From the NCBI GenBank assembly GCA_905479065.1, contig CAJQLB010000007.1:1-64000 (forward strand): DNA of 64,000 bases, in the 5' to 3' direction. Below are positions 8,450 through 25,363 of this stretch, one piece after another (position 1 is the stretch's first letter; each line of letters starts with the position of its first letter). Made by a program: the position numbers and the translations under genes. This stretch comes from an uncultured Flavobacteriaceae bacterium (GTDB taxonomy: Bacteria > Bacteroidota > Bacteroidia > Flavobacteriales > Flavobacteriaceae). The notes under the pieces are model-generated. The model worked only from the letters and a program-made list of their open reading frames with translations. It was not told the origin of the DNA and ran no database searches.

Positions 8450-9787
8450 TTATTGTATCATGTTTAGTTGATTAACAACTAATTTCCCAATTTTTCTTCC
8501 TTGCTCCACACCAATTTCAACAGCAGAACGGTAGTGTATTCCACCATACATTCTACTTATAGCAGCTTCATCAGCAGCCTCACTAAAAGTGGAGTAGGAC
8601 CTTTCTTTTAAACCATACGGAACCTCTGAATTATCAATAAAATCAAAGTTTTCTCCAAAAATTGAGGTTAATACAACGGAGGCAGCTCCAGATACAACAG
8701 AGTGACCACTTGTGTATTCCGGGAAAGGAGGTGTTTGAAGAATGGGTTTCCATTCATCATTAAAATATGTATTAATTAGAGTTTCGGGTCTTACAAGATT
8801 ACTTCGATATTTTTCGTCCCAACAACTAATAAAGGCATCGGCAAGTGCGATGGAAGTTTTAGTATAAGCGAAGACAGTTTTACTATAATTAGCATTGTCT
8901 TTTTTTGATGCAATTTTTGTGATTCCAATCCAATGTGCTCCTGGTGTAATTTTTTTAACAGCAAACATTAAATGACCTCTTGTTATTGAAACGTAAGGAT
9001 TACAGTCCCAAAATTGAGCAATCGCAATTTCCTCTGACTCATCACCTTTTTTTGTAATTCGTTCGCTGATGTCATACACCTCTTGTAATTCCTTATAAAA
9101 TAAAGATGTTTTTTCCATCGAGAAAGAAGGTGGGGGAGTCGGTTTAAATTGTGCAGCTGAATCCAAAATGAAAGGTCGTATTTTGTTCCAATGAGGTTCA
9201 AGGCCGTCCATATAAGATGGTGGTGTAGGCTGCCATCTAGATTCATCTTCTGAATCTACTCTAAATTTTGGCATTGTTCTGGTTTGAGGATAGTTGTCAT
9301 TATTCATCCAATTCGCTATGAATTCTGAAACTTGAAGACCGTATTCTCGAGAATTTTCAAACTCAACAGGGTTTATGTTTTCCCATTTGGTGTAAAGACT
9401 GTCTCTGAAACCTTTAATTTTATCCTCAGAAAAAATGAGTTGTCGACTTAAATCTATATGAGCAATGAGCGCCGATAAAGAATGATTTATTGACTTATTT
9501 TTGCCTGCTTTTGGAATTGCGCCAAGATGTTCAATTTGTTTTTCTAATGATTGATACATACTATCATTTTGTGCTATAATTTCATAAGCAGCTATATTTG
9601 GATAGACAAAAACCCTACTTGCTACAGGTGGCGAAAATATGTCATGAACCATCGCGTCAATGACCCTGTCAACGGAAAGGTGAAAGTCCTCTGTAGAAAC
9701 TACTATAGGGTCGTAGTTTGGCTTGCATGAGTAAATCATTAAAATAAAGAAAAATCCTAGGGAAAATTTTTGTGTTAATTTCATCAT
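8450..9787 (-). CDS. Vanadium-dependent haloperoxidase/PAP2-like lipoprotein
   Basis: A 445-residue lipoprotein (lipobox Cys21) of the vanadium haloperoxidase/PAP2 phosphatase superfamily. The vanadate/phosphate pocket is complete: Lys326-x6-Arg333-Pro334, then TSGH with His362, then Ser411-Arg412-x5-His418. The Lys-Arg and Arg-His spacings (7 and 6) equal those of characterised vanadium chloroperoxidase. It could be a haloperoxidase or an acid phosphatase; the fold alone does not decide. Related proteins are common beside VCBS/UnbV lipoproteins in marine Bacteroidota (recalled, not searched). It overlaps the stop of the preceding repeat lipoprotein by one base, so the two are translationally linked. 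Confidence 0.85.
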   Translation of the reverse strand: MMKLTQKFSLGFFFILMIYSCKPNYDPIVVSTEDFHLSVDRVIDAMVHDIFSPPVASRVFVYPNIAAYEIIAQNDSMYQSLEKQIEHLGAIPKAGKNKSINHSLSALIAHIDLSRQLIFSEDKIKGFRDSLYTKWENINPVEFENSREYGLQVSEFIANWMNNDNYPQTRTMPKFRVDSEDESRWQPTPPSYMDGLEPHWNKIRPFILDSAAQFKPTPPPSFSMEKTSLFYKELQEVYDISERITKKGDESEEIAIAQFWDCNPYVSITRGHLMFAVKKITPGAHWIGITKIASKKDNANYSKTVFAYTKTSIALADAFISCWDEKYRSNLVRPETLINTYFNDEWKPILQTPPFPEYTSGHSVVSGAASVVLTSIFGENFDFIDNSEVPYGLKERSYSTFSEAADEAAISRMYGGIHYRSAVEIGVEQGRKIGKLVVNQLNMIQ

Positions 9788-12700
9788 TATTGGTTTGTTA
9801 GTTCATATACTTGCGCCTTGTCATTATTTACAGTAACCATTAAGAAGGGTTGTTGTTTAAATGATATGATATTTAGACTTTTTATGGCTTTGTTACTAAA
9901 ATTTAATCCAATTTTATTTCCGAGAATGACTGTGCTATCATTTTTAATTAGAGCTCCTGGAAATGAATCAAAGCGACCATGATATGGTGTTACCCCAAAA
10001 TAATTCCCTCCCACTAAAATTTCAAACGTTCCATCATCATCAAAATCATATTTTAAAAAAGAGGTGATAGGAGCGATTTGCAACTCACTTTTAAATGGGA
10101 CGAATGTGTATTGGTTATTGATGTTTTTTAAGTAGCCTGATGATAAGGTATGTACATTCAGTTCTTTAGCACTATCTAAATCAGATTTTTCTATAATCTC
10201 AGAAATTTGTTTACCAGCAAAGTTTTTGTACGAAGGATATTTTTTACGTAAACTAATGAGTTGACTGGCTAATTCATCTAAGCCCAATATTGGGTAATAC
10301 CCATCTTTATTATAATTACAAACAATGGTTTCGGTAGTCTCGTTATTATCAAAATCTGAGTAGTACATTTTAAGAGGGCGGTCCTTAGATGCTTTAAATT
10401 TTGAATTTTCTCCCCAGTTACCTAACAAATAATCAGTATCTCCGTCATTGTCAATATCGAAAGGAATTATTTGTTGCCATAATCCATTTAATTTTTGATT
10501 GACAGTTAATTCCTCAACGAAATTGCCCTTCTCGTTACGAAAGAATTTTGGAGACATCCATTCTCCTACTATGATAAGATCTGCAAAGCCGTCAGAGTTA
10601 AAGTCATCCCAAATAGCATCTGTTACCATCCCTATATTCTGAAATGGTTGATCCTTGAGAATTGAAAAATAACCATTATCATTGTTTAAGACATAAGAAT
10701 TTGGAATGTTACCAAAATCGTTAGACACGGCGTTGTTCCCAATAAATAGGTCTAAATCTCCGTCAAGATCATAGTCGAAAGCTTTAATGACGTTGGCATT
10801 CTCAAAATAAGCAGGAAAATCTTCCTTTAAATAATGCTTATTGTTTTGACTGTAATATTTATCTAATAATGGAGGCATATTGTTAAAAAAATCACCTCCT
10901 CCAGTTCCAATGATGATGTCATTTATAGAATCGCCATTGAAATCAGCAATGATTGCCTCAACATCTTCTGTAATAGAATCTTTGTAAATAGTTTTAATAA
11001 TTTGTTCATTAAATTGACTATCACCTTGGACATAAACTTTTGGTGTTTTAAATTTAGAACTACCAAAATAAACATCATCTTTTCCATCATTATTTAAATC
11101 TCCGATAGCAACACCTGGACCTCGATCTGAAATCTGATAAGGAATCAGCTTTTGTCTATTAAAGTCAATGTAGTTGTCTTCTTCATGAGTAAAATTCAAA
11201 CCGAGATTATTTTCAGTTTGTTTGAAAACTAGTGACTTATTTAATGTTGTTTTTTCTTTGGCTAAAACTTGTGTGTCCTCAGGGTTAATCGTCAGGGTTT
11301 GGTTGGTGGAAATATTTTTTAATGTTTGATAGGTATTGTTTGGCCAAACAACCCTTATTGAATCGACTGAATTTACAGATCCAAAACCAAAATGAATCAC
11401 AGGTTCTGAGGACGATTGAAATCCTCTTACGGTGTAGAGTTCTTTATATTGAAGTATTCCTGCTGAATAGGCGTATACTTTTGTTCCGATACCAAAGGAG
11501 TTTGGTTTAAAATAATTGAATTTTAATTTTAAAAAATGACGTTTTTCATTTGTTTGATTGATGTAAATAGAGGCCTCTTCATTGATATTATTAATCACCA
11601 AATCTAAATCTCCATCATTGTCTAAATCTCCAAAGGCCGTTGCTCCTGAAACATTTAAGTTGTCATCAATCCAAATACCTGATTTGTCTTGAAATTTTAA
11701 TTCTTTCGAGCCTTTAAAAATATAGTTGTGTGTTTCCCCTGAGGGCATCATATTTAGAGCCTCTTGATCAACTAATTTTGTGTTGTCAATTTTTTTTTGA
11801 ATCTGTTCATTTGAAACAAATTTTATAAAATCTAAATCATTAGGTCTCTTTGGAATACCATTTGAAATGAATAAATCTTGCTCACCATCTTGGTCGTAAT
11901 CAGCAAACAGCCCACTCCAACTCCAGTCTGTGGCTCCAATACCACTGAGAAGACCGGTTTCCAAAAACCTTGAATTTGCTTGATTAATGAACATCATATT
12001 TCGAGTAAACTGATAGTGGTATCCATATTTTTCAGTCCTTAGTTTTTGGATTTGGATATTATCATCACCTTCTGAAGATTTGAGAACGATTTCATCTTCT
12101 GCTAACATGTCCAAAGACAATAAATCTGGCCAACCATCATGGTTGATGTCAGCAGCATCATTTCCCATTGAAAATCTAGAGGTGTGTCCAAAATAATTTT
12201 TGAGTTGTTCAGAAAATGTTCCATCACCCTTGTTTATGTAATAATAATCATCTTCATGGAAGTCATTTCCAACGAAAATATCTGGATAACCATCTTTATT
12301 GAAATCGGCTATTGCTACACCTAAACCATAGCCGTTGACCCCTCCAAATATACCTGCTTCCTCACTGATGTCTGTAAATGAATCGCCATCATTTCTCAAT
12401 AACTTGTCCCCAGTTTGATAATTTCTCTTACTTCTTACTGTTACATTTCCAAATGATTCTTGTGTATGCGTAGCGTGATTTAAAAGATAAATATCTAAGT
12501 CTCCATCGAGATCAAAGTCTAAAAATGCGGCAGAGGAACTGTAAGAGTCAAAATCTAAATTATAGTATTTTGCACTTTCAGTAAAAGTTTCATTGCCATT
12601 ATTTATATACAATTCATTATGCCCATAAAAACCATTAACCCCGACAACTGCACAAACATAAATGTCAATTAAGCCATCACCATTGATGTCACCCATTATT

Positions 12701-13038
12701 GCTCCGGTATTCCAAGAGCTATTTCCCTCAATTAAGGCTTTTTTAGAGATGTCTTCAAAGGTGAGATTTCCCTTGTTTAAATATAATTTATTTGGCAACT
12801 GGTTAGCAGATAAAAAGACATCTAAAAGTCCGTCATTATTGATATCGCCTAAGGCAACACCACCTCCGTTATAGTAGTAAAGATAATCGAGAATATTGAC
12901 GTCATCTGATGCTGTTAAACTATTTTTAAAAACGATTCCTGTTTCTTTTGTGGGAGCTTTGATGAAGAGTCGCTCTTTTTGTTCGTGGCAACTAAACAAA
13001 AGAATAAAACCAACTAAAACAATGCTTTTACTCATCAT
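9787..13038 (-). CDS. VCBS/FG-GAP + ASPIC/UnbV repeat lipoprotein (copy 1 of 3)
   Basis: A 1,083-residue secreted lipoprotein (lipobox Cys17) built from FG-GAP/VCBS blades. Many DxNxDGxxD-type calcium loops recur from about residue 60 to 480, for example GDINNDGLLDVF and ADFNKDGYPDIF. An ASPIC/UnbV domain follows (about 520-600, containing RGFQSSSEP and VVWPN), then a second FG-GAP set (about 640-900). Near the C-terminus comes a helical DELASQLISLRKKYPSY segment shared with the two paralogues, then a last FG-GAP blade. Beta-propellers of this kind bind ligands or partner proteins; no catalytic motif is visible. It overlaps the preceding paralogue by 11 bp and the haloperoxidase-like gene by 1 bp. 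It probably sits on the outer membrane, but its ligand is unknown. Confidence 0.88.
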   Translation of the reverse strand: MMSKSIVLVGFILLFSCHEQKERLFIKAPTKETGIVFKNSLTASDDVNILDYLYYYNGGGVALGDINNDGLLDVFLSANQLPNKLYLNKGNLTFEDISKKALIEGNSSWNTGAIMGDINGDGLIDIYVCAVVGVNGFYGHNELYINNGNETFTESAKYYNLDFDSYSSSAAFLDFDLDGDLDIYLLNHATHTQESFGNVTVRSKRNYQTGDKLLRNDGDSFTDISEEAGIFGGVNGYGLGVAIADFNKDGYPDIFVGNDFHEDDYYYINKGDGTFSEQLKNYFGHTSRFSMGNDAADINHDGWPDLLSLDMLAEDEIVLKSSEGDDNIQIQKLRTEKYGYHYQFTRNMMFINQANSRFLETGLLSGIGATDWSWSGLFADYDQDGEQDLFISNGIPKRPNDLDFIKFVSNEQIQKKIDNTKLVDQEALNMMPSGETHNYIFKGSKELKFQDKSGIWIDDNLNVSGATAFGDLDNDGDLDLVINNINEEASIYINQTNEKRHFLKLKFNYFKPNSFGIGTKVYAYSAGILQYKELYTVRGFQSSSEPVIHFGFGSVNSVDSIRVVWPNNTYQTLKNISTNQTLTINPEDTQVLAKEKTTLNKSLVFKQTENNLGLNFTHEEDNYIDFNRQKLIPYQISDRGPGVAIGDLNNDGKDDVYFGSSKFKTPKVYVQGDSQFNEQIIKTIYKDSITEDVEAIIADFNGDSINDIIIGTGGGDFFNNMPPLLDKYYSQNNKHYLKEDFPAYFENANVIKAFDYDLDGDLDLFIGNNAVSNDFGNIPNSYVLNNDNGYFSILKDQPFQNIGMVTDAIWDDFNSDGFADLIIVGEWMSPKFFRNEKGNFVEELTVNQKLNGLWQQIIPFDIDNDGDTDYLLGNWGENSKFKASKDRPLKMYYSDFDNNETTETIVCNYNKDGYYPILGLDELASQLISLRKKYPSYKNFAGKQISEIIEKSDLDSAKELNVHTLSSGYLKNINNQYTFVPFKSELQIAPITSFLKYDFDDDGTFEILVGGNYFGVTPYHGRFDSFPGALIKNDSTVILGNKIGLNFSNKAIKSLNIISFKQQPFLMVTVNNDKAQVYELTNQ

Positions 13039-16000
13039 TAATCAAAAATATTTTTGGAAATTCATCATTAATAGAAGCTACAAGGTATGTTTCTCCATTT
13101 TTTGTTTTAATGGTTCTTAATTGTTTTGCTTCATTTTTTATAACAAAACCACTGTCGTTATAGTTTTGCCATGTAAAGTTAAGATTGCCATCTCCTAAGA
13201 GGACATTTCCGTAATTTGCATCTAATCGAGAGTATTGAGGCTTGAACTCAAAATTGTTTCCAGCCATGATAATATCGAGATTTCCATCATTATTTACGTC
13301 AGAGCAAACAATACCACAAACACAAGAAAATTGGACTCTGTTTGGTAGATAAATAATTTGAAATTGATTGTTACCAATGTTTTCTGCAATAATAGTCTCT
13401 GAAATAGTACTCTGTTTTATTATTGACCGGTCAAAAATATCTTTATTAAACAATTTATCAATCGACTTTTTGGCATATTCAGAAGCTTTGATATTTTGTT
13501 TTTTTAAGGAGACGAGTTGTGCTGTCAATTCCTTTTTCATATGGATTGGGAAATCGCTACCGTTCTCATTTTTTGTAATTATTTGTTCAATAGTTCCATT
13601 ATTGTCAAAATCATTTATCCACATTTTCATTGGATGTTCATTGGATGTTTTGTGAGCAGTGTTATTCCCTTGATTTCCAAAAATAAAATCTATGTCACCG
13701 TCACTATCTAAATCAGCAGTTTCGACGGTGTTCCACATCCCATGTAAATCATCTAAGGATGATGTTAATTTGATTAATCGTTTGCCATTATTTTTATAAA
13801 TTTTTGGAGTGTCCCATTCTGCAACAATGACTAAATCCTTTAGGTCATCATTGTCAATATCTACCCATTTTGCATTGGTAATCATTCCTGCATTTTTCAA
13901 ATCATAAGCGACTTTATCGGTAACATTCTCAAATACACCATGGCCATCATTTTGTAGAAACAAGTGTGCTGGATTAATACCATAAGTACCTACCACACTT
14001 CTTGACCCAACAAAAACATCAATATCTCCGTCGTTATCAAAGTCGTAAGGTGCGACTACAGCAATATTTGTGCGAGTTGACGGAATAGTTTGTTGTGATA
14101 ATTCAAATTTGCCATTACCATCACTAAAGTATAATCTTGTAGTGTATAAATGGCTATTCCCTCTCTCATTTCCTCCTGTGCCAACTATTAAATCTAGATT
14201 TCCGTCGTTATTTGCATCGAAAAAAGCAGCGGTTGTATCTTCTAAATATGCATCATTTGTAAATGCCTTTTGAATGGATTGTTTGATTATGCCATTGCCA
14301 TAATTCATATATAAAACACCAGGCTGCCCTTTCCCTCCACCGATGTAAAAATCTTCATTCCCGTCTTTATCAATGTCACCAACAGCAAGCGCTGGCCCTT
14401 CTTGTGAAAGCATTTTTGAAATTAATCCCTCAAAATCAAAATCAGAATAGTTGTTTTCTTGATGTTTAATGAGATCTTTAATCGTTATTTCAGAGAGAAG
14501 TGTATTGGTGGTATGAGCTTGAGATGGCTTTTGAATTTCAGAGGCTTCAGACTGTTTTAATGTTAATATTGTGTCTGTTTTTACAGTTGTAATTTTTTGT
14601 GTTTTGTCATTAGGCCAAATAACTCTTAATGAGTCTATGATTTCAGTTTCTCCAACGCCAATAGTCATTACATAATCCATCGAGGATTGAAACCCTCGTG
14701 AGGGAATTTGTTCTTGTACATAGGTTTTACCATCGTAATATAATTTTATTGTACTTCCTACACCAAAGGTGTTTGTATCATCACCTGTTAATTTTATTTT
14801 TATAAAATTATTATTTGTTAAAGTTTCGGTATTATTTTTATAAACAAATGGTGGCATATTAACATTGTTAATCACCAAATCTAAGTCTCCGTCATTGTCT
14901 AAATCACCATAGGCGACACCATTTGACAAACTTGGGATTTCAAACCCCCATTCTTTGTTGGCATTTTTAAATGTCAAATCTCCACGATTTTGGTAGGCAT
15001 AATTAGGCTGTGGCTTGATAGGCATTTTACTGATAATTGAATCAATAGCTTGTTTTCGACCTGTCAGTGCCATTTTTTGAATAATTTCGTTTGCGAAAAA
15101 ATCAACAAAATCTAAGTCTGTCAGATCGTGATTGACACCATTGGTCACAAAAATATCTCTATTTCCATCGTTGTCCATATCAAAAATAAGACCAGCCCAA
15201 CTCCAATCGGTTTTGGCAATACCACTGAAATAAGCTATTTCTGAAAAAGTGCCATTACCATTGTTGAGTTGAAGTGTGTTTTGAATATATTGTTGATAAA
15301 AATCCTTACTTTGTTTGAGTTTGAAAACATTATAGTTTTCAAATTCCATAACAGATTTCACTCGTTCGTCTGCTTCAGGTAACATATCAGTAATAAAAAT
15401 ATCAATGTTTCCGTCGTTGTTAATGTCCGCCATATCAACGCCCATTGCAGATAAACTTAGATGAGAAACCCAATTTTTAATATCCTCTGTAAAAGTTCCA
15501 TCTTGATTATTCAAGTACAAATAGTCTCTTTCATAAAAATCATTTGATATGTAAATATCCGGATATAAGTCACCATTAATATCACTAACCATAACGCCAA
15601 GACCAAAACCAATTAGACTTCCATAAATCCCTGCCTCTTCACTAACATCTACAAACTTACCGTCGTCATTTCGTAATAACATATCACCAACCCCTCTAAA
15701 TATTTCAGGCACATTCTCCCAATCTTGTGCGCGTTTATCTCGTTGTTCAGCATAGCCTAAACTACTTACAGGAATATTACTATTATTTAATATGTAAGCA
15801 TCAAGATCACCATCTTTATCATAGTCAAAAAAGGAAGCATGTGTTGAAAATCCTGTTTTGGCTAAATTATAGGTCTCGGCTTTTTCAGTGAAAGTTAAAT
15901 CACCATTATTGATATACAAATCATTATCATGGTTGTTACCCTCTAAATTTCCGGCATTACTTACATAAATATCTAACAAGCCATCTTGGTTTATATCGAC

Positions 16001-16387
16001 CATTACAACACCTGTTGACCAAGGTTTGTTCCCCTCAATACCTGCCTTTTCTGAGATATCTTCAAACTGAAAGTTGCCTTTGTTAAGATAAAGTTTATTA
16101 GCTACCATATTACCTGTGATATAGACGTCGGCAAGTCCGTCGTTGTTTATATCACCTAGTGCAACCCCACCGCCATTGTAGAAGTTACGATATTTAAAAA
16201 TATTAAAGTTTTTTTGATTTTTTACAGAATTCACAAAATCAATACCGATATCTTTTGCGTTAAGAAGAGAAAATAATTGTTGTGTGTTATCAGCTTTCTT
16301 ATCTTCATTCATTTCTTGATTACAGGCATGTAATAATATGACGCACAGCAATAAGGCAAATCGGTGTAACATTAATTGAGCTTTCAT
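13028..16387 (-). CDS. VCBS/FG-GAP + ASPIC/UnbV repeat lipoprotein (copy 2 of 3)
   Basis: A 1,119-residue paralogue of its two neighbours. Lipobox Cys22, N-terminal FG-GAP propeller with loops such as GDINNDGLADVY and VDINQDGLLDIY, an ASPIC/UnbV domain (RGFQSSMDY and VIWPND, about 540-600), a second FG-GAP series beginning QEGPALAVGDIDKDGNEDFY, the conserved KELTAQLVSLKKQN segment, and a C-terminal blade. It overlaps the upstream copy by 4 bp and the downstream copy by 11 bp. The three copies have diverged widely in sequence while keeping domain order, which suggests an old triplication with distinct roles rather than recent duplication. It may act as a surface ligand-binding or assembly partner of SusC/SusD; this is inference. 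Confidence 0.88.
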   Translation of the reverse strand: MKAQLMLHRFALLLCVILLHACNQEMNEDKKADNTQQLFSLLNAKDIGIDFVNSVKNQKNFNIFKYRNFYNGGGVALGDINNDGLADVYITGNMVANKLYLNKGNFQFEDISEKAGIEGNKPWSTGVVMVDINQDGLLDIYVSNAGNLEGNNHDNDLYINNGDLTFTEKAETYNLAKTGFSTHASFFDYDKDGDLDAYILNNSNIPVSSLGYAEQRDKRAQDWENVPEIFRGVGDMLLRNDDGKFVDVSEEAGIYGSLIGFGLGVMVSDINGDLYPDIYISNDFYERDYLYLNNQDGTFTEDIKNWVSHLSLSAMGVDMADINNDGNIDIFITDMLPEADERVKSVMEFENYNVFKLKQSKDFYQQYIQNTLQLNNGNGTFSEIAYFSGIAKTDWSWAGLIFDMDNDGNRDIFVTNGVNHDLTDLDFVDFFANEIIQKMALTGRKQAIDSIISKMPIKPQPNYAYQNRGDLTFKNANKEWGFEIPSLSNGVAYGDLDNDGDLDLVINNVNMPPFVYKNNTETLTNNNFIKIKLTGDDTNTFGVGSTIKLYYDGKTYVQEQIPSRGFQSSMDYVMTIGVGETEIIDSLRVIWPNDKTQKITTVKTDTILTLKQSEASEIQKPSQAHTTNTLLSEITIKDLIKHQENNYSDFDFEGLISKMLSQEGPALAVGDIDKDGNEDFYIGGGKGQPGVLYMNYGNGIIKQSIQKAFTNDAYLEDTTAAFFDANNDGNLDLIVGTGGNERGNSHLYTTRLYFSDGNGKFELSQQTIPSTRTNIAVVAPYDFDNDGDIDVFVGSRSVVGTYGINPAHLFLQNDGHGVFENVTDKVAYDLKNAGMITNAKWVDIDNDDLKDLVIVAEWDTPKIYKNNGKRLIKLTSSLDDLHGMWNTVETADLDSDGDIDFIFGNQGNNTAHKTSNEHPMKMWINDFDNNGTIEQIITKNENGSDFPIHMKKELTAQLVSLKKQNIKASEYAKKSIDKLFNKDIFDRSIIKQSTISETIIAENIGNNQFQIIYLPNRVQFSCVCGIVCSDVNNDGNLDIIMAGNNFEFKPQYSRLDANYGNVLLGDGNLNFTWQNYNDSGFVIKNEAKQLRTIKTKNGETYLVASINDEFPKIFLINDE

Positions 16388-19300
16388 TTATTTAATTTTA
16401 AAAAAATGGGGGAATTATTATTTCTTGTAATAATGTAATAAATGTCTTTATTAATCACGATCTCTTCAATCCCTCTTGTTTCACCAGAAGCACCTATATA
16501 TTCATGTGCTTTTTGATTAAAAAATCCTTTCTGGTCATTCATTAAGACCATGCCGTGAGAAGCGTCTAATTTACCTAATTGCGTGTTAATATGATAATTA
16601 TTTCCGATTAAAAAAACATCTTTAAAACCATCATTATTGAAATCTTTTATGAGCATGTCTTTTACTGAAGAAACTTGACTCATAAGTGGTAATTCGTGTT
16701 TTTTAAAGGTATTATTACCTATATTTTCAAAGTAACAACTTGCGAGTTCATTGATGTGTTTTTTAGCGATATTAGTTGTTTTATTTTTTGGAAATAATTC
16801 ATTGAAGGAGGCCTGCGCAAAATCTTGGTAAGACAAATAGGTCTTATTTAGATAAGGAAGCTGTTTTACCAATTCATCCTTTGATGCAAGTGTCGTTTCT
16901 TTGTGTTGTTGGTAATAGGTTACGATTGGATCGATTGTTCCATTACCATCAAAATCATTTCGATATAAGGTGATTGACGCTTCTTTTGAAGCCTTGAGTC
17001 TTGTGTTTAAACCCCAGTTACCTGCAATGATATCAATATCACCATCATTGTCAAAGTCAGCTGCTTTAACAGTATTCCACCACCCTTCAGTGTTGTTTAA
17101 TTTAGTGCTCTGAATCAAAAGTTTTTCTCCGTTATTAATAAATAGTGTTATCGGCATCCAATGTCCTACAACAATGACATCCTTAAAGTTGTCACCATTA
17201 ACATCAATCCAGTGTATATCATAAACATTACCAATATTTTCAAATTCAGTGCTTACTGATGTGGTGATGTTTTTAAATTCACCGAGTCCGTTATTTTCAA
17301 AAATATATTGTCTTGGTGTTTGTCCAAATTCCCATGGGATAAGATTTGAAATAATGGAAATATCCATATCTCCATCATTATCTAAATCAACAACGCTCAC
17401 TTTGGAAGCGTTTGTTTCAATTTCCATGAATTGCTGGGATTCATACCGAAATACTCCATTCTCGTTTATGTATAATCTAGGCTTTAGCGGAGATCCCTCT
17501 TTAAATTCGTTTCCGCCACTTACTACAATTAGGTCTTTATAAGCATCACCATTGGCATCAAAAAATAATGCATGCGTATCTTCATTAATGGCATGTTCCT
17601 CAAATATATTGTCTTGCACTGACACAAATTCACCATCCTTATTTTGTAGATACAAAGCGCTTTTTTGTGATTTTCCTCCAGTGATAAAGATATCTTCAAG
17701 ACCATCATTATTTACATCATCTACTGCCGTATATGGACCTGTATTTGTTGAGGCATAAGGAACAAGAGGGTCTCTATTAAATTCAATAGAAGGTGTGTCA
17801 TAATGCTGAAAATCAAGAATACTATCTGTTAACACTTCTAGATGATTAGGCTTACTTTCATTGTAATAGTTATATGACAAATGTGCGTTTTTGATGGAAG
17901 CTATAATCTGATGATTAGTTACAATCTTCTCTAATCTTTCATATTTTCCATTAGGCCAGATAATATGCATTGAATCTACAGTTTGTTCCGTTCCCAGTCC
18001 TATATGAATTGACGCATCACTGGATGACAAATAACCTTTATTTATATAGTTTTCTTGTGTGATTATTTGATCTTTAATAAAAGCTTTTATTTTCACACCA
18101 ATTCCCAATAAGTTATCTGCTTCACCCAAGAATTTTATTTTGAGATAATTATTACGGTTGTTTTCCGCATTATTTTTTAACACAAAAGCCTGTTCATTAA
18201 TATTGTTAATAACAAGATCTAAATCCCCGTCATTGTCTAAATCAACAGAAACACCGCCATTACTAAAAGACGTCTCGTTTGAAGTCCATTGATGCGTTAC
18301 ATTTTTAAATTTAGTATCACCTGTATTTTGATACATATAATTTTCTACCTTTTTTTCTGGGATAAGTTCAGATAATTCTAGGTTTCTTTCTGATTGTTCG
18401 GTAGCTAACTGTTTCTGAATAGTTTCATTTGATATAAAATTGATGAAATCCATGTCATTTGTTGCACCAACAATTCCATTTGTCACATACAAGTCTTTGA
18501 ATCCGTCGTTGTCGTAATCTCCTATTATTGGGCTCCATGACCATTCCGTTGCGGCAATACCACTTAAAAAAGCAATTTCACTGAAGGTGCCGTTACCGTT
18601 ATTATGATGTAATGTGTTTTGCATAAATTGAGGAGCGTAACCATTATTTAAATAAGATTCATATGTTTGGAAAGGTGCTTCAACACCTGAAGCCTTGTAA
18701 GTTTCTAAATCTTCAGGGAGCATGTCGAGAGATATGATGTCTTGAAGTCCGTTATTGTTTAAATCAGCGATTGCATTACCCATCGAATAATGCGACGTGT
18801 GGCCTAACGTTGAAATGTTACTTGTGATGACTTCTTTAAAGGTGTTGTTTTGTTGATTCATGTAGAGGTAGTCATTCTCAAAAAAATCATTACCAACATA
18901 GATGTCGGGATATCCATCATTGTTAATATCACTTATGGATAAGCCTAAGCCGTATCCGATTTTTCCTTGAAAAATTCCAGATTGTGATGTTATATCAATA
19001 AACTTACCATTAATATTTTCAAGAAGTTTATCGCCAGATATATCATCGATGCGGTTTCTATTATCTCCCTTACCATAATTACTGTTTGGGTGTAAGGAAT
19101 GATTGAGTACAAAAAGATCTAAATCTCCATCTTTATCCATGTCAAAAAATGCTGATTGAGTAGAGAAAGAACGAAGATCCAAACCATATCTTTCTGCTTC
19201 TTCTGTAAATATTGGAATTCCATCTTTGTCAATTCCGTTATTGACAAACAATAAATTATGCCCTGTTATAGTATTATAGTTACCTATTTTACAAACATAA

Positions 19301-19671
19301 ATATCTAATAATCCATCGTTATTAATATCTACAGTTGTAACTCCAGTGGTCCATGGTGACGTATTATCGATATTGGCAGCTGTGGTAATATCCTTAAATT
19401 TAAAACCTCCTATATTGAGATATAAGTGGTCTTTTGATTGATTGGCGGTAAAATACAAATCAACTAATCCATCATTGTTAAAGTCTCCTGCCGCCACTCC
19501 GGCACCATTGTAATAGTATAAATAATTTAAAATATTAAGACTTGTGGTCTCACTTAACTGATTTTGAAAATATAAATTAGTTTCTTTTGGGCTCAAACTC
19601 TCAAACAAAGGAGGTTCGTTTTTACAAGAAAAACATAAAACAATAAGTAAATAGGGCAACAAGCATTTCAT
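16384..19671 (-). CDS. VCBS/FG-GAP + ASPIC/UnbV repeat lipoprotein (copy 3 of 3)
   Basis: A 1,095-residue lipoprotein (lipobox Cys16), first of the three paralogues to be transcribed. FG-GAP loops include GDFNNDGLVDLY, VDINNDGLLDIY and SDINNDGYPDIY; the ASPIC/UnbV domain is recognised by KGYLSSSDASIHIGLG and IIWPNGKY (about 545-600); the second FG-GAP set starts NTGPYTAVDDVNNDGLEDIF. The helical KDELVKQLPYLNKTYLSY segment precedes the last blade. It follows susD with a 96-bp gap that contains a strong terminator hairpin, so its expression is likely lower than that of susCD or driven partly by a separate promoter. The gene overlaps the next copy by 4 bp. Confidence 0.88.
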   Translation of the reverse strand: MKCLLPYLLIVLCFSCKNEPPLFESLSPKETNLYFQNQLSETTSLNILNYLYYYNGAGVAAGDFNNDGLVDLYFTANQSKDHLYLNIGGFKFKDITTAANIDNTSPWTTGVTTVDINNDGLLDIYVCKIGNYNTITGHNLLFVNNGIDKDGIPIFTEEAERYGLDLRSFSTQSAFFDMDKDGDLDLFVLNHSLHPNSNYGKGDNRNRIDDISGDKLLENINGKFIDITSQSGIFQGKIGYGLGLSISDINNDGYPDIYVGNDFFENDYLYMNQQNNTFKEVITSNISTLGHTSHYSMGNAIADLNNNGLQDIISLDMLPEDLETYKASGVEAPFQTYESYLNNGYAPQFMQNTLHHNNGNGTFSEIAFLSGIAATEWSWSPIIGDYDNDGFKDLYVTNGIVGATNDMDFINFISNETIQKQLATEQSERNLELSELIPEKKVENYMYQNTGDTKFKNVTHQWTSNETSFSNGGVSVDLDNDGDLDLVINNINEQAFVLKNNAENNRNNYLKIKFLGEADNLLGIGVKIKAFIKDQIITQENYINKGYLSSSDASIHIGLGTEQTVDSMHIIWPNGKYERLEKIVTNHQIIASIKNAHLSYNYYNESKPNHLEVLTDSILDFQHYDTPSIEFNRDPLVPYASTNTGPYTAVDDVNNDGLEDIFITGGKSQKSALYLQNKDGEFVSVQDNIFEEHAINEDTHALFFDANGDAYKDLIVVSGGNEFKEGSPLKPRLYINENGVFRYESQQFMEIETNASKVSVVDLDNDGDMDISIISNLIPWEFGQTPRQYIFENNGLGEFKNITTSVSTEFENIGNVYDIHWIDVNGDNFKDVIVVGHWMPITLFINNGEKLLIQSTKLNNTEGWWNTVKAADFDNDGDIDIIAGNWGLNTRLKASKEASITLYRNDFDGNGTIDPIVTYYQQHKETTLASKDELVKQLPYLNKTYLSYQDFAQASFNELFPKNKTTNIAKKHINELASCYFENIGNNTFKKHELPLMSQVSSVKDMLIKDFNNDGFKDVFLIGNNYHINTQLGKLDASHGMVLMNDQKGFFNQKAHEYIGASGETRGIEEIVINKDIYYIITRNNNSPIFLKLNK

Positions 19672-19675
19672 GTTG

Positions 19676-19683
19676 CAAAATTA
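19676..19683 (-). promoter_or_regulatory. TAnnTTTG-type -7 box candidate just before the third UnbV lipoprotein
   Basis: Read on the minus strand this is TAATTTTG, an exact match to the Bacteroidota -7 element TAnnTTTG, ending 4 bases before the start codon. No TTG -33 element was found at the usual spacing, and the position would imply a leaderless message. It is weak evidence for an extra promoter after the susD terminator. Confidence 0.2.
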
Positions 19684-19714
19684 AGAAAATAGCAGATAAT
19701 CCATGTTCTAAAAC

Positions 19715-19746
19715 AAATAAAGAGGGTAAAAATACCCTCTTTATTT
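19715..19746 (-). terminator. Intrinsic terminator after susD (perfect 14-bp stem)
   Basis: Two perfectly complementary 14-base arms (19715-19728 and 19733-19746) flank a 4-base loop. The arms contain the GAGGGTA/TACCCTC core. Read in the direction of susD transcription the hairpin is followed by a T-rich stretch (TTTATTTGTTTT including the end of the arm). It lies 22 bp beyond the susD stop and 43 bp before the next gene, so it should end or attenuate most susCD transcripts, or protect their 3' end, while allowing some readthrough into the repeat-lipoprotein genes. Confidence 0.85.
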
Positions 19747-19767
19747 AAATGTTATGTATAAACCTAT

Positions 19768-21318
19768 TTAGTAACCAGGGTTTTGAACTAAATTTGGGTT
19801 TGATATTAATGCATCTAAAGGGATAGGAAATAAATTTCTCGTTGTATCACCAACTGAAGCAGGATCTTTAAATTCCCAATTTTTGGTGAATTGGTCAAAC
19901 CTAAGTAAGTCATTTCTTCTAAAGAATTCAACATATAATTCTCGACCTCTTTCATCAATCATGTCATCTAAGGATACTGATGATAATGGAGAGGCACCTC
20001 TAAGTGCTCTTAATTCATTAACTTCAGCTGTAGCACTACCACCACCACCTCTTAGCATGGCTTCAGCTCTCATTAAGTGAGCATCTGCAAATCGCAAGAT
20101 GATTTCATGAGCTCTAAAAGATGCTGAACCTGAACCATCATACGGATGATATTTAATGACTCTAATTGCTTGTGTCTCCGAACTATTTTGTAAATCAAAG
20201 TCTCTGGTGAAATTCAAAGGATTTCCAGCTCTATCGGATAGGGCATTTCCGTTGGCATCATATTGTTGACCAATTAGGAAACCGTAACCAATTCCGTAAT
20301 TTGTGTTTGGATCAGCATTTGAAGCATCTGGCACAAAACCTCTTCTTTCTTCCTGACCTGATCCCACATAGTTTTGGTTAGCATCACCTTCAAATAAGTC
20401 GTAAAATTCGGCGAGTGTTGAAAACCCATTCCAACCACCACCACCATTATCTGGCGATACGATGTTGTAATGCATTCCATTCCAAATTCTATTACCGATA
20501 CCAATTTCTCCGTATAACACTGTTTCTGTATCTACACTTGGTAAAAATAAATCAAAGTATCCAGCCTGTAATCCAAAACCTGCAGACTCAACAGCATCAA
20601 CAGCACTAATTACTTCATTGTAATTTGGCTCAGAGCCTGTATAGCGCTCACTGTTTAAGATTACTTTTGCTTTTAAGAAATTAGCGGCAGCTTTTGAAGC
20701 CCCTTTCGTTTCAGAACTTGGTCCTATGTTCGGAAGGCCCGCTATGGCATCATTTAAATCATTTATTATGAAATCATAAGCTTCAGAAGCAGAGAAAACA
20801 CTTGGTGTTACACTCGCTCCATCAGTTGCATTTCTAAAAGGTGCTTGACCCCACATGTCTAAAACAAAATACATATTGAAAGCACGTAAGAACTTCGCCT
20901 CTGCTACTTGTTGTGAAGAAGCATTACTTAAAGGATCTATAATTTCTGTTGCTTTTAATACTTTTTCATTTAATTGGTTCCATGTGGTTAATAAAAAACC
21001 ATGATCGATTTTCCAAGTGTGAGCGTGAAGTGATCTCCAAAGACCGTTATCTCCCCAGTCACTTCCTCTTGTTGGAATAACTTGTTCATCTGTAGTTACC
21101 TCATTAAGAGCAAAAAAGTTTGCTTGGTCTCCTAGCATTCCCCATGTTTGGCCATATAGACCACTCAAGGCTTCTGCAGGGTTGGCAACACCCTCAAATA
21201 TAAGAGCGCCCTTAATCACTGAGTCCGTTGCTTCGATTTCTAAATCTGAGCAAGAATTCATTGTAAATATCGCCATTAAGGATAATGCGATTAATTTAAT
21301 GTTCTTTAATTTTTTCAT
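19768..21318 (-). CDS. susD: SusD/RagB-family outer-membrane lipoprotein
   Basis: A 516-residue SusD-type glycan-capture lipoprotein that forms the lid over its SusC partner. Lipobox Cys23 follows a clear hydrophobic signal. The SusD-like N-domain (TPR helices) is followed by the RagB/SusD C-terminal part, with the conserved ADAHLMRAEAMLRGG and the family ending LFPIPLDALISNPNLVQNPGY. Length is typical. It lies 11 bp behind susC and ends 22 bp before a strong hairpin terminator. Context (alpha-glucosidases, trehalase) suggests an alpha-glucoside or oligosaccharide ligand, but SusD sequence does not reveal substrate. Confidence 0.95.
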   Translation of the reverse strand: MKKLKNIKLIALSLMAIFTMNSCSDLEIEATDSVIKGALIFEGVANPAEALSGLYGQTWGMLGDQANFFALNEVTTDEQVIPTRGSDWGDNGLWRSLHAHTWKIDHGFLLTTWNQLNEKVLKATEIIDPLSNASSQQVAEAKFLRAFNMYFVLDMWGQAPFRNATDGASVTPSVFSASEAYDFIINDLNDAIAGLPNIGPSSETKGASKAAANFLKAKVILNSERYTGSEPNYNEVISAVDAVESAGFGLQAGYFDLFLPSVDTETVLYGEIGIGNRIWNGMHYNIVSPDNGGGGWNGFSTLAEFYDLFEGDANQNYVGSGQEERRGFVPDASNADPNTNYGIGYGFLIGQQYDANGNALSDRAGNPLNFTRDFDLQNSSETQAIRVIKYHPYDGSGSASFRAHEIILRFADAHLMRAEAMLRGGGGSATAEVNELRALRGASPLSSVSLDDMIDERGRELYVEFFRRNDLLRFDQFTKNWEFKDPASVGDTTRNLFPIPLDALISNPNLVQNPGY

Positions 21319-21329
21319 TTTTCTTTTTT

Positions 21330-24300
21330 TTAAAATTTAGCATTTATTCCAAAAGTAATTGTCGTAGGATTAGGATAAGCACCGTAATCCATACCTATAG
21401 ATGGTAAACTACCTCCTGTACTCGAACTAACTTCAGGGTCTAAACCTGAGTAATTGGTAAACAACAGTAAGTTTTGACCTGTTAATGATAATACCATTGA
21501 TTTGAAAGTTCCCTTTCCTGATAATGGTAAATTATAGCTAAAAGATAAGTTCTGTAAGCGAACAAAATCTCCTTTTTCCAAAAATCTAGTTGAAGCCTCA
21601 GCAGATGCACCTAATCCTTCACCACTTGTCAGTGTTTCAGGAAGTACATTTCTAGAGGTATTGAAAGCACCCGCTGTAAAGAAAGCGTTTGCTGTATTGT
21701 TATATACATAGTGTCCAAACTGACCACTTAAGTAGGCAGACATGGTCCAACGCTTGTAGCTTAGATTTGTAGAAAAACCACCTGTTACGGTTGGTAAGGC
21801 ACTCTTTCCAACAAATTGAGGGTCTTCAGTAATAATTGGCGTTCCATCAGCATTATATCCATCAAATACTCTCACGAAGTAAGAAAATAAAGGATAACCT
21901 TCTTGTAGTTTTTGAGCAGTAGCCCCTGTTAAACCAGGACCATTAACATTCGCAGATAAATATTCACCAGTTAATGACTCCACCATGTTGTCATTATAGG
22001 CAACGTTAAATGAAGCTGACCAATTAAAGTCTTCTGATTGAACAAGATCATAGGCTAAGCCAAACTCAACACCTTTGTTTACAATTTTTGAATCTTCAAG
22101 ATTTTTAAATTGTGTTGGATTCACGGCAGGTTGTGCGGTGTTAATGAGAAATAATAAGTCTTGAGTTTCTTTACTATAAACATCGATGCTACCTGATAAT
22201 CGATCATCATTAAATCCAAAATCTAAACCAGCGCCGTATTGTACCGTTGACTCCCATTTTAGATTTGGTTCAGCAAATGCTACAGCTCCAACACCTGAAT
22301 TTAAAAAGATTTCACCTGAATCGCTGATACCTAAACCTCCCCAACGTTCTCGTCTAACATAATTTCCGTATCCAACACCTTCTTGGTTACCAGTTATACC
22401 AGCACTTACTCTAAGTTTTAACGTTGAAACATTGCTGTCACTCAAGAAATCTTCTTCACTTAATTTCCATGCAATAGCTCCAGAAGGGAAATAACCGTAA
22501 CGATTGTCTTTACTGAATGATGACGAACCATCTGCTCTTACAGTAGCAGTCAATAAATATTTATTCTTGTAAGAATAATTTACTCTTGCAAAATAAGACT
22601 GTAACTCAGTAGTGTTGTCATAAGAATCAACAGCTAATGATTTAATTGCACCAATGCTGCCACTCGGACTTATAAATTCTTGTGCAACATCAGGAAATAA
22701 TCTATTGACATACACCCCAGATAAGTTTGGAGCATAACCAAATTGCTGAAATGAACCTGGTATTTGGTTTGCAATATTGTTAACAATGGATTTCATATCA
22801 TCTCCCATTTGATCCATATCATCTGTCCCAAAACCCCATGCACTAGAATTGATTCCTGAGTTTCTAAAACTTTGATATGAAAATCCAACTAATGCTTCTA
22901 ATTTTGAGTCACCAAATGTTTTGTTGTAGTTCAAAGTCGCTTCTAAAAGTTCATTCTCAACTTCTAGGTTATTGTAACTTCCACGTCCATTTCCGGTAAC
23001 ACTACCTGTAGAGTTTAAATTTTTTGAACTAACCGAATAATTATCAGAATCTGATTGGTCAATACCAACGCTTACTTTACCTCTAAGATCATCAGAAATA
23101 TCATACTCTGCAGATAAACTCGCTAAATAGCGATTTGTGTTAGCACGACCACTAGAGTAAGCTAGTAAATTGGCAGGATTCAATAATCCGCCAGTCTCAT
23201 CAAAACCTGCTCGATTTGGCCAAGTTGGATTTGCAGAATATGCTGCACCGAGTAAATCACCTCTAAATCCTGCACTTCCCGCGATTGGTGCAAGCTGGTC
23301 ATTAATTCTTGAGTAAGTCCCCTGCAAGCTTATTTTTAATTTATCATCCAAGAAACGTTGATTAACGTTAAGTCTAGCAGAAATTCTTTCCATGTTAGAG
23401 TTTTCGACAACGCCTAACTGATTTCCAAAACCAACAGAGGCTAAATACGACCCTGTATCATGAGATTTTGAATAGCTAACATTTTGATTGTGAGAGGCAG
23501 CTGTTCTGAAGATAACGTCTTGCCAATCTGTTGATGAACCATAATCTGCAGAATTATCCAAACCTAATCGAGTTCTTTCAGATAAAAACTTTTTAGAACT
23601 CAATAAATTGTATGTTTCTCTTGGTTTTGAACTGCTCACGTTAAATTGATACGTGAACTCGCCATCTCGAGATCTTCCATTTTTTGTTGTAATGATAACG
23701 ACACCATTCGCACCTCTGGATCCATAGATGGCTGTTGCAGATGCATCTTTCAAAATACTAATGCTTTCAATATCATTTGGATTTAAAAAATTCAATGGGT
23801 TTTTGGCTGGATTACCTCCAACACCTGGAACATCTCCGCCAGCTACAGTTGACCCTCCTGATAATGGAATTCCATCTACAACAAATAGGGGGTTATTGTT
23901 TGATCTTACAGAGTTTGTACCTCTGATACGAATATTGATTCCTGCTCCCGGCTGACCACTTGTGTTTGAAATTTGAACACCAGCAGTTTTACCTTGTATG
24001 AGTTGCTCTGGTGACGATATAACACCTTGGTTGAAATCCTCTGACCTTACAGCGGCAACAGCTCCTGTTGCATCTTTAACTGTTGTTGATCCATAACCGA
24101 TAACAACTACTTCGTCAAGTGCAGTTAAGTCTTCGCTCATCGTTACATTGATCACCATTTCAGAACCAACAGTTCGTTCTTCCGTTTGATACCCAACATA
24201 ACTGAATACTAAAACATCTCCCTCGCTTGCCTCAATGACATAATTACCGTCAAAGTCAGACAGGGCGCCAGAAGTTGTTCCTGCAATGGTAATGTTTACG

Positions 24301-24416
24301 CCAGGTAAACCTCCATTTGCATCCGATACAGTACCTTTAATTGCTTGTCCAAAAGAAACACTACTTACAAGTAGAGCTATAAGGAATAAAGGATGTTTAA
24401 ATAAACTCTGTTTCAT
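21330..24416 (-). CDS. susC: SusC/RagA-family TonB-dependent transporter
   Basis: A 1,028-residue outer-membrane oligosaccharide importer driven by TonB. Signal peptide to about residue 24, a carboxypeptidase-regulatory-like domain (25-98, containing the GVNITIAGTTSGALSDFDGNY run), a TonB-box-like DEVVVIGYG at 101-109, the plug with IRIRGTNSV and PLFVVDGIPL, then a 22-strand barrel ending in FGINAKF. It heads the minus-strand sugar locus and is paired with susD 11 bp downstream. The 190-bp region in front carries a LacI-type palindrome, so regulation by a LacI-family protein encoded elsewhere is plausible; no hybrid two-component sensor or LacI gene is seen nearby. Confidence 0.95.
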   Translation of the reverse strand: MKQSLFKHPLFLIALLVSSVSFGQAIKGTVSDANGGLPGVNITIAGTTSGALSDFDGNYVIEASEGDVLVFSYVGYQTEERTVGSEMVINVTMSEDLTALDEVVVIGYGSTTVKDATGAVAAVRSEDFNQGVISSPEQLIQGKTAGVQISNTSGQPGAGINIRIRGTNSVRSNNNPLFVVDGIPLSGGSTVAGGDVPGVGGNPAKNPLNFLNPNDIESISILKDASATAIYGSRGANGVVIITTKNGRSRDGEFTYQFNVSSSKPRETYNLLSSKKFLSERTRLGLDNSADYGSSTDWQDVIFRTAASHNQNVSYSKSHDTGSYLASVGFGNQLGVVENSNMERISARLNVNQRFLDDKLKISLQGTYSRINDQLAPIAGSAGFRGDLLGAAYSANPTWPNRAGFDETGGLLNPANLLAYSSGRANTNRYLASLSAEYDISDDLRGKVSVGIDQSDSDNYSVSSKNLNSTGSVTGNGRGSYNNLEVENELLEATLNYNKTFGDSKLEALVGFSYQSFRNSGINSSAWGFGTDDMDQMGDDMKSIVNNIANQIPGSFQQFGYAPNLSGVYVNRLFPDVAQEFISPSGSIGAIKSLAVDSYDNTTELQSYFARVNYSYKNKYLLTATVRADGSSSFSKDNRYGYFPSGAIAWKLSEEDFLSDSNVSTLKLRVSAGITGNQEGVGYGNYVRRERWGGLGISDSGEIFLNSGVGAVAFAEPNLKWESTVQYGAGLDFGFNDDRLSGSIDVYSKETQDLLFLINTAQPAVNPTQFKNLEDSKIVNKGVEFGLAYDLVQSEDFNWSASFNVAYNDNMVESLTGEYLSANVNGPGLTGATAQKLQEGYPLFSYFVRVFDGYNADGTPIITEDPQFVGKSALPTVTGGFSTNLSYKRWTMSAYLSGQFGHYVYNNTANAFFTAGAFNTSRNVLPETLTSGEGLGASAEASTRFLEKGDFVRLQNLSFSYNLPLSGKGTFKSMVLSLTGQNLLLFTNYSGLDPEVSSSTGGSLPSIGMDYGAYPNPTTITFGINAKF

Positions 24417-24606: not shown

Positions 24607-25353
24607 CTAAAGTTCCTTGATTTTTATATTTCTGAAGGCTACTCGATCACCATGATCTTGCAGACCAACATGTCCAGTTTGATATTTTCCAAATCCCTCC
24701 CAGCCATTAAATTTCGATTTTTGCACCATTGTATCCCATTTTTCTCCACTGAGTGGAAATGTCATGACTTCGTTATCATTCATAGTAACTTTTGCAATAT
24801 TTGCAGTTTGATTTACCTCAATAACACATAAATTCCATTCTCCTGCAGGGTTAATATATTGTTCGGGACAAGCTATGAGGTCATAAAGAGATCCTGCTTT
24901 GTGTGTTCCTTCTGCAACAAAAGAATCAGGGTGCTTTGCATTATCTAGTACCTGAATTTCAGGACCTGTCATGTAGGCTTCTCTATATTTTTTATCCTCA
25001 AAAACACTCCAAAAGATGCCACTATTGCCACCCTCTGAAATTTTCCATTCAAGGGATAATACAAAGTTAGTGTAGGTGTCTTTCGTGATAATATTTTTAC
25101 CGCCTGTATCACCAGGAGTAAAAACCATAGTGTTATCTTCAATAGACCACTCACTGGGCATACTGTCACTTAAATAGCCTCTCCAATGATTGAACGATGT
25201 TCCATCAAAAAGGATGGTCCAATCATTTTGAGAAGATAAATTACCAGGCGTTTTTATATTGTATGCAGTATTTTGAATTTCAAGTTTTTCCTGACTCCTT
25301 TTACAGGTAGTGAAAGAAATGAGTATGAACATAAGTAATGATAGCTGTTTCAT
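24607..25353 (-). CDS. DUF1080 3-keto-disaccharide hydrolase-like lipoprotein
   Basis: A 248-residue lipoprotein (lipobox Cys17) with the whole length after residue 40 covered by the DUF1080 domain, a concanavalin-like beta-sandwich now named 3-keto-disaccharide hydrolase. Family landmarks are ILFDGTSFNHWRG at the start, GGNSGIFWSV in the middle, EIQVLDNAKHPD with the likely active-site acids, and HVGLQDHGDRVAFRNIKI at the end. Family members in Bacteroides have been linked to cleavage of 3-keto-trehalose-like sugars (recalled knowledge). It is the last gene of the minus-strand keto-sugar operon, 10 bp after the TIM-barrel isomerase and 190 bp upstream of susC. Confidence 0.88.
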   Translation of the reverse strand: MKQLSLLMFILISFTTCKRSQEKLEIQNTAYNIKTPGNLSSQNDWTILFDGTSFNHWRGYLSDSMPSEWSIEDNTMVFTPGDTGGKNIITKDTYTNFVLSLEWKISEGGNSGIFWSVFEDKKYREAYMTGPEIQVLDNAKHPDSFVAEGTHKAGSLYDLIACPEQYINPAGEWNLCVIEVNQTANIAKVTMNDNEVMTFPLSGEKWDTMVQKSKFNGWEGFGKYQTGHVGLQDHGDRVAFRNIKIKEL

Positions 25354-25363
25354 GTCAAGCGTT

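Follow-up and report, generated by a model that had tools for sequence, protein, structure and literature searches.

The stretch of DNA analysed here (the window) comprises 64,000 nucleotides of contig CAJQLB010000007.1 from an uncultured Flavobacteriaceae bacterium (assembly GCA_905479065.1). On its minus strand, from position 24416 down to 8450, lies a run of genes for SusC, SusD, three consecutive FG-GAP/ASPIC-UnbV lipoproteins of about 1,100 residues each (UnbV-1, UnbV-2 and UnbV-3) and a lipoprotein of the PAP2 fold (Table 1). A preliminary description of the locus had recognised this set as one run, and the open reading frame coordinates together with the Pfam and NCBIfam matches confirm it. 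Judging by its full-length match, the PAP2-fold protein is an orthologue of a structurally solved vanadium iodoperoxidase, and the gene set, hereafter the cassette, recurs in many other members of the family.

Table 1. Features of the minus-strand run in the window, in the direction of transcription.
Feature	Coordinates	Strand	Basis
SusC, TonB-dependent outer-membrane transporter, 1028 residues	21330-24416	-	TIGR04056 683 bits (cut-off 368); Plug and barrel; OMP_RagA_SusC
SusD lipoprotein, 516 residues	19768-21318	-	SusD_RagB PF07980 1.3e-20, 74.7 bits (cut-off 23.1); lipid Cys 23
RNA hairpin, 15 bp, in the SusD-UnbV-1 gap	19714-19747	-	minimum free energy z -3.1
UnbV-1, FG-GAP/ASPIC-UnbV/FG-GAP lipoprotein, 1095 residues	16384-19671	-	PF07593 and PF13517; 12 DxDxDG-type loops
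UnbV-2, two beta-propellers around an ASPIC/UnbV domain, 1119 residues	13028-16387	-	PF07593 and PF13517; 12 loops; AlphaFold model
UnbV-3, paralogue adjoining the peroxidase, 1083 residues	9787-13038	-	PF07593 and PF13517; 12 loops
Putative vanadium iodoperoxidase (4cit) orthologue, lipoprotein, 445 residues	8450-9787	-	4cit E 9.3e-209; PAP2 PF01569 44.3 bits (cut-off 27.2)
hyp299: N-terminal membrane helix, middle alpha/beta part, GyrI-like domain	7542-8441	-	AlphaFold and Foldseek; no Pfam family
GH13 alpha-glucosidase-type enzyme, TreC-like subfamily	5872-7545	-	profile match
MFS transporter, distantly GPH sucrose/proton-like	4539-5861	-	PF07690; TIGR01301 93 bits, far under cut-off 511
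Second MFS transporter	3310-4542	-	profile match
GH37 trehalase	1451-3313	-	PF01204 9e-131
Second GH13 enzyme	13-1440	-	profile match

The start/stop overlaps that had been described as running throughout are present at the last three junctions, UnbV-1/UnbV-2 (4 bp), UnbV-2/UnbV-3 (11 bp) and UnbV-3/peroxidase (1 bp), but SusC and SusD are separated by 11 bp and SusD and UnbV-1 by 96 bp. The run also extends beyond 8450: six more genes on the same strand (hyp299, GH13, MFS, MFS, GH37 and GH13) continue to the end of the contig with gaps of at most 10 bp. FG-GAP_3 and UnbV_ASPIC score above the Pfam cut-off in all three UnbV proteins. Pfam and NCBIfam scans of seven proteins, with matches accepted up to E 0.01, gave no SusE or SusF hit, in agreement with the preliminary description. 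The nearest solved relatives of the window SusD in a Protein Data Bank (PDB) search are 3jys and SusD itself, 3ck7 (3.1e-31 and 2.6e-30). The genome as a whole (2.4 Mb in 48 contigs) has two SusD_RagB matches and eight UnbV matches.

A phmmer search of the PDB aligned residues 15-444 of the window peroxidase with 4cit/4usz (E value in Table 1), with 66% identity to 4cit over 427 residues. The 4USZ structure is that of the vanadium iodoperoxidase of Zobellia galactanivorans (PMC5064120). Identity between the 4cit chain and the peroxidase in the cassette of Zobellia uliginosa DSM 2061 (locus L120, which is also L037) is 98.6%, therefore the solved enzyme belongs among the cassette peroxidases; with the peroxidases of three other Zobellia loci it is 86-87%. 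Ten PDB matches were obtained at E up to 1, eight of them named haloperoxidase or bromoperoxidase and two NapH1/NapH3, which we take to be vanadium chloroperoxidases, and none is named a phosphatase. The window protein also retains the lysine, arginine, serine, glycine, histidine and arginine that presumably form the vanadate pocket, along with the presumed metal-binding histidine, and all seven are intact in each of the 126 full-length homologues, a count in which some loci appear twice. The PAP2 domain is present, but it is common to haloperoxidases and hence not decisive for an acid phosphatase. We have set a phosphatase reading aside, as 4cit matches over the full length, and the phosphate removal proposed in the preliminary description is disfavoured by the orthology and the conserved pocket. 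That the window enzyme prefers iodide is a prediction from its relatives, because the residues that determine halide preference are said to be largely unknown, so that sequence does not reveal halide specificity (PMC13198595).

We considered how widely the cassette is conserved. Sixty family neighbourhoods were hand-picked from peroxidase matches among 199 genomes of the family, and the window was added to make 61. A second set, the named loci, comprises the 80 of 296 that are most similar to UnbV-1, and its counts lean towards the window. Forty phylum neighbourhoods were hand-picked from matches among 395 genomes sampled over the phylum, and 20 control SusCD loci were hand-picked among the high-scoring SusD_RagB matches listed. 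Six duplicate loci were dropped. Adjacency was counted only at loci with a peroxidase of at least 350 residues, taking the best-scoring copy per locus, that is at 61 of 61 family, 59 of 74 named and 40 of 40 phylum loci. The 15 named loci excluded are two with fused readings (L088, L121), three in which the stretch stops within the peroxidase (L106, L143, L155), nine that end earlier, and L139, which lacks it between UnbV-3 and hyp299.

Peroxidase matches at E up to 1e-10 are present in 95 of the 199 family genomes, including that of the window (84 at 1e-100 or better), and in 77 of the 395 phylum genomes at 1e-25. The gene directly upstream of the peroxidase, and transcribed with it in one direction, encodes a UnbV protein at 45 of 61 family, 59 of 59 named and 21 of 40 phylum loci, and Sus genes are found in 43, 51 and 24 of these peroxidase loci, respectively. 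The control SusCD loci have no VIPO1-type peroxidase (0 of 20), and three of the 20 have a UnbV gene. A gene order unique to this genome would have refuted the preliminary description; the order is clearly not unique, as the cassette is also found in other genomes, among them those of Zobellia, Flagellimonas/Muricauda, Maribacter, Christiangramia/Gramella, Dokdonia and Tenacibaculum.

Two arrangements recur. Type A has the order seen in the window, SusC-SusD-UnbV-UnbV-UnbV-peroxidase-hyp299, while in type B a distant SusCD pair is accompanied by UnbV, a protein of about 200 residues, UnbV, UnbV and peroxidase. The 200-residue protein between the first and second type B UnbV proteins (L067:7797-8399 and 13 other family loci) has no Pfam match, as scanned in L067. 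Outside the family, L176, L182, L183 and L189 encode SusC, a SusD-like protein, a redoxin-like protein, a protein of about 440 residues, one UnbV protein and the peroxidase (domains were scanned in L176 only); the 440-residue protein has a weak copper-monooxygenase match, and these loci look like a different redox version of the module. Two loci, L121 and L088, appear to fuse UnbV-3 to the peroxidase but were not used as evidence: in L121 a signal peptide persists at the joint, inside the frame, and the L088 protein is a shortened reading from a metagenome-assembled genome. The single frame in L121 (16644-21308) probably reflects a lost stop codon or a sequencing error.

Each UnbV protein of the window has 12 loops of the pattern D-x-[DN]-x-[DN]-G. 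The AlphaFold model of UnbV-2 has a mean predicted local distance difference test score (pLDDT) of 87.9, and its best structural match is murine CRTAC1, 9etn (Foldseek 5.8e-25; Z 38.4, root-mean-square deviation 2.5, 459 residues aligned). A likeness to aldos-2-ulose dehydratase (Z 30.6) was left unused, since it is tied with other propellers such as LGI1 (Z 30.9). In a FastTree phylogeny of 129 UnbV proteins, the type A proteins resolve into three clades, one for UnbV-1 (22 rows), one for UnbV-2 (16) and one for UnbV-3 (14), all with support of 100, and UnbV-2 joins type B copies 1 and 2 in one clade of 33 (support 100). Because each type A copy falls in its own clade, the three cassette proteins are, on this phylogeny, old and distinct paralogues, and recent tandem duplication is ruled out. 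Twenty UnbV proteins from loci without a VIPO1-type peroxidase group together (support 99), and four further rows so labelled (two of L217, L218 and L219) sit among the peroxidase-adjacent ones; the label means no VIPO1-type match above 150 bits, and some of the rows are contigs ending before the peroxidase.

A lipoprotein cysteine follows a hydrophobic stretch in SusD, the three UnbV proteins and the peroxidase of the window, which bears out the lipoprotein status earlier given to the UnbV and PAP2-fold proteins. Across the loci, 113 of 116 peroxidases, 76 of 76 SusD, 85 of 90 UnbV-1, 89 of 92 UnbV-2 and 93 of 93 UnbV-3 proteins have a lipid-anchor cysteine, with an acidic residue no more than five positions after it in 101, 76, 67, 81 and 80 of them, respectively. 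This pattern of acidic residues after the lipid cysteine fits the surface export signals of the Bacteroidota, and the cassette lipoproteins are thus predicted to be exposed on the cell surface.

The gap between SusD and UnbV-1 contains a strong hairpin (Table 1). Against dinucleotide shuffles, z values of -2 or below were obtained for 60 of 62 cassette SusD-UnbV gaps and 19 of 24 gaps between SusD and the next gene in the phylum and other sets, compared with two of six control gaps and one of nine gaps between UnbV and the next gene. The hairpin is therefore probably a general feature after SusD and not peculiar to the cassette; it is possible that it acts as an attenuator or as a stabiliser of the 3' end. 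With the hairpin placed after SusD and ahead of UnbV-1, SusCD may be produced at a level other than that of the UnbV/peroxidase block. The overlaps had been taken to imply equal production of the proteins, but they are insufficient to show it, and the hairpin argues against a uniform level.

Directly behind the peroxidase, hyp299 is encoded at 28 of the 61 family loci and 56 of the 59 named ones. In its AlphaFold model (pLDDT 93.1), a membrane helix is followed by a middle part and a C-terminal part with a GyrI-like fold. The best Foldseek match is CtaZ, 7zhe (3.3e-9, template-modelling (TM) score 0.73 of the target), and the CTR107 rhodamine-binding proteins score 0.78-0.81; the match to the StfQ aromatase/cyclase is weak (TM 0.23). 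On the basis of this weak match we tentatively describe the middle part as SRPBCC-like, and hyp299 would be anchored in the membrane and bind a hydrophobic small molecule.

The genes around the cassette often point to sugars, in keeping with the setting that the preliminary description had suggested. The carbohydrate-active enzymes of the window run are GH13, GH37 and GH13. For a broader test we compared 51 cassette loci having SusC and at least 2.5 kb upstream with the 20 controls. Genes for GH13, GH37, GH65 or GH97 enzymes or SUT-like MFS transporters are present in 31 of 51 cassette loci and one of 20 controls (Fisher p 1.2e-5), and LacI in 33 of 51 and two of 20 (p 4e-5), p values that flatter the cassette, as the alpha-glucoside seeds come from the window and cassette loci, the loci are related and there are only 20 controls. 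At a looser threshold, 1e-5, with another GH13 seed added and only alpha-glucoside enzymes counted, the figures are 35 of 51 and one of 20. NCBIfam and Pfam name a GH65-domain enzyme, beta-phosphoglucomutase, GH32 (L119, L152) and PfkB (L119); the GH65, beta-phosphoglucomutase and GH32 genes are predicted disaccharide routes, for maltose, trehalose and sucrose. A small alpha-glucoside is the likely sugar class for the window, from its gene content.

None of the 51 loci has xylA/xylB, but this is an artefact of the filter and does not count against xylose as the general substrate: the filter excludes xylose loci by construction, as xylA/xylB between SusD and UnbV-1 push SusC to the edge of the stretch. 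The xylB, xylA and sodium/solute symporter genes are inserted variably, either between SusD and UnbV-1 or before the peroxidase (L040, L043, L046, L049, L095, L097 and others); a symporter precedes the peroxidase in L036, L040, L043, L046 and L049, with xylA/xylB in the last four. The alpha-glucoside and xylose labels are mixed across the SusD tree. At L101, L110, L112, L117/L031, L122 and L129, the UnbV-peroxidase-hyp299 block stands beside LLM monooxygenase-, molybdopterin oxidoreductase- and small c-type cytochrome-like genes (assigned by eye), which suggests sulfonate metabolism beside these blocks. Among 135 family loci, sulfonate-type genes occur at eight loci with neither sugar set and at one with xylose genes.

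Beside the cassette in the window (24607-34580), both strands bear genes of the 3-keto-disaccharide pathway, including two hydrolases, GFO/IDH/MocA oxidoreductases, TIM-barrel isomerases and a GMC oxidoreductase with a gluconate-2-dehydrogenase-3 protein. One 3-keto-disaccharide hydrolase, two sugar-isomerase-type TIM barrels, a GFO/IDH/MocA oxidoreductase and a Nuc_H symporter are encoded upstream on the same strand as the cassette, and the GMC and gluconate-2-dehydrogenase-3 genes and the second hydrolase on the opposite strand. A GMC gene and a gene of about 214-229 codons also lie directly before SusC in L125, L137, L140, L141, L144 and L157 (Salegentibacter, Christiangramia/Gramella and Gillisia).

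Further links between haloperoxidases and UnbV proteins were found outside the cassette. In one control locus with UnbV and GH97, a 1328-residue protein (L227:13511-17497) combines FG-GAP, UnbV_ASPIC, DUF6851 and VCPO_2nd; it has a sorting tail just below the cut-off and intact vanadate motifs (K-x6-RP, SGH and SR-x5-H). Strong relatives of the peroxidase half were found in 17 of 198 genomes of the class, six of which, picked because the relative lies in a frame of about 1,300 residues, were examined. A UnbV match lies about 3.3 kb from the L227-type peroxidase in four of these (G856, G827, G741 and G843) and not in G906 or G241. The window genome has such a relative on contig 12 (G000:C12:97115-99241) with no UnbV match on that contig, so that four of seven genomes overall have UnbV nearby; by a rough estimate, chance proximity would be expected about once in a hundred per genome, at roughly four UnbV genes per genome. 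The fusion was seen in L227 only, and in the six genomes no UnbV match falls inside the matched stretch of the peroxidase. In addition, a distant peroxidase homologue of 489-502 residues (108-113 bits) is present in six of 20 loci fetched for giant UnbV proteins without a VIPO1-type enzyme (L203, L206, L207, L211, L212 and L213), directly adjoining UnbV in L206 and L207.

We tentatively favour, at a little less than even confidence, a reading of the cassette as a SusCD importer of sugar in which calcium-stabilised propellers serve as the scaffold for a vanadium iodoperoxidase at the cell surface. SusC and SusD would carry a small alpha-glucoside of the trehalose, maltose or sucrose class over the outer membrane, and the MFS proteins and GH13 and GH37 enzymes of the same run would complete its uptake and hydrolysis. 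The three calcium-stabilised double-propeller lipoproteins would replace SusE/F-type proteins as a scaffold on the outer side, physically joined to their neighbours, with UnbV-3 the likely direct partner of the peroxidase and UnbV-1 and UnbV-2 linking the enzyme to SusCD. The surface peroxidase would convert hydrogen peroxide and iodide to hypoiodous acid, and the purpose of this iodide oxidation may be to clear peroxide at the feeding site, yielding reactive iodine species nearby.

Several observations weigh against this reading, among them the lean towards the cassette in the sugar-context test. UnbV-peroxidase pairs occur with no Sus gene within about 20 kb in L062, L063, L194, L196 and L198, so the peroxidase is a steadier partner of UnbV than the Sus genes are. 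Even that pairing has departures: six of the 61 family peroxidase loci have no UnbV gene in their stretch, L139 has UnbV-3 followed by hyp299 with no peroxidase within its 14.8 kb stretch, the peroxidase lies farther along, behind other genes, in L046, L143 and L155, and hyp299 intervenes in L068. The sole genome of the same genus sampled (G197) is without a peroxidase match. Among the 135 family loci, 45 have alpha-glucoside genes and 20 have xylA/xylB, never both, and the rest have neither; the cassette in general is therefore not tied to a single sugar class. No hydrogen peroxide-producing oxidase was identified in the window, and the nearby GMC protein looks like a dehydrogenase because of its gluconate-2-dehydrogenase-3 partner. 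Iodide as the halide of the window enzyme is, as noted, argued from orthology.

The Sus-free pairs fit an alternative in which the peroxidase and propellers form a defence or competition device, removing peroxide on algal surfaces or directing hypoiodous acid against competitors, and share transcription with sugar genes for no other reason than that a cell feeding near algae profits from both. Expression in Zobellia is also compatible with it, as vIPO3 is reported to be up on Ascophyllum relative to alginate (PMC9296495), although vIPO3 may be another gene than that of the cassette. The repeated linkage of the peroxidase loci to Sus genes in all three sets, and to sugar catabolism, speaks against this alternative, which we regard as unlikely.

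A second alternative is that the cassette is an iodine-uptake system, in which the peroxidase makes hypoiodous acid, the propellers receive or relay it, SusCD or the envelope imports iodinated species, and sugar gives peroxide or reducing power. In Arenibacter sp. C-21, iodine uptake required glucose, oxygen and calcium, a membrane-bound glucose oxidase together with a haloperoxidase was proposed as the model, and the genome has at least five 4USZ homologues (PMC5064120); the cassette likewise unites sugar import, calcium-loop propellers and a 4USZ-type enzyme. Uptake in C-21 was, however, glucose-independent once a peroxide-generating or iodide-oxidising system was supplied (PMC5064120), thus sugar import as such is unneeded there, and iodine binding or transport is not known for any part of the cassette. 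We consider this alternative rather improbable. It would be similarly bold to claim both that UnbV double propellers are dedicated haloperoxidase partners across the Bacteroidota and that the cassette is a sugar-, oxygen- and calcium-dependent iodine-capture system of marine Flavobacteriaceae, with sugar import and surface iodide oxidation in one machine, a combined proposal that seems to us quite doubtful.

Vanadate and phosphate pockets share residues. The model of the preliminary description, in which glycan-binding propellers offer SusCD a glycoconjugate that the PAP2-fold enzyme dephosphorylates, can draw on this, on the PAP2 Pfam match and on the lectins included in the VCBS supercluster of propellers (PMC8023676), but it appears very unlikely given an enzyme orthologous to a haloperoxidase and recognised catabolic genes next to SusCD that point to phosphate-free sugars.

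If the cassette is a sugar importer with a propeller-held peroxidase, it could help explain how sugars, peroxide and iodine are handled at the surface of marine bacterial cells. In any case, a solved vanadium iodoperoxidase gains a genetic setting, one common to many marine Flavobacteriaceae, and three open matters are tied together: the function of giant UnbV/FG-GAP proteins, the purpose of bacterial iodoperoxidases, and the peroxide- and calcium-dependent iodine uptake of marine Flavobacteriaceae. The parts of the cassette are of known kinds, and as far as we searched the literature we found no description of the SusCD-UnbV-peroxidase combination, although the primary papers on the Zobellia enzyme or on C-21 could hold an earlier mention; the available portions of the literature joining haloperoxidases with polysaccharide utilization do not describe the set.

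The cassette resembles four known systems in part. With the Sus-like systems (polysaccharide utilization loci) of the Bacteroidota it shares the SusC-SusD pair, lipoproteins after SusD and, often nearby, LacI and alpha-glucoside enzymes, but it has three UnbV propeller lipoproteins and a peroxidase, with no SusE/SusF-type match. The CRTAC1/ASPIC-UnbV family, represented by murine CRTAC1, has an FG-GAP propeller and an ASPIC/UnbV domain in common with the cassette proteins, which add a second propeller and a bacterial lipid anchor. The iodine uptake of Arenibacter sp. C-21, which belongs to the same family as the window organism, needs sugar (or supplied peroxide), oxygen and calcium and has been proposed to involve a haloperoxidase; the responsible genes are not named in that report (PMC5064120). 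Finally, the window protein matches the vanadium iodoperoxidase of Z. galactanivorans (4cit, 4usz) along its full length and in its vanadate pocket; that enzyme is treated as a single enzyme in the available portions of the literature, whereas here its counterpart is set within a SusCD-UnbV cassette.

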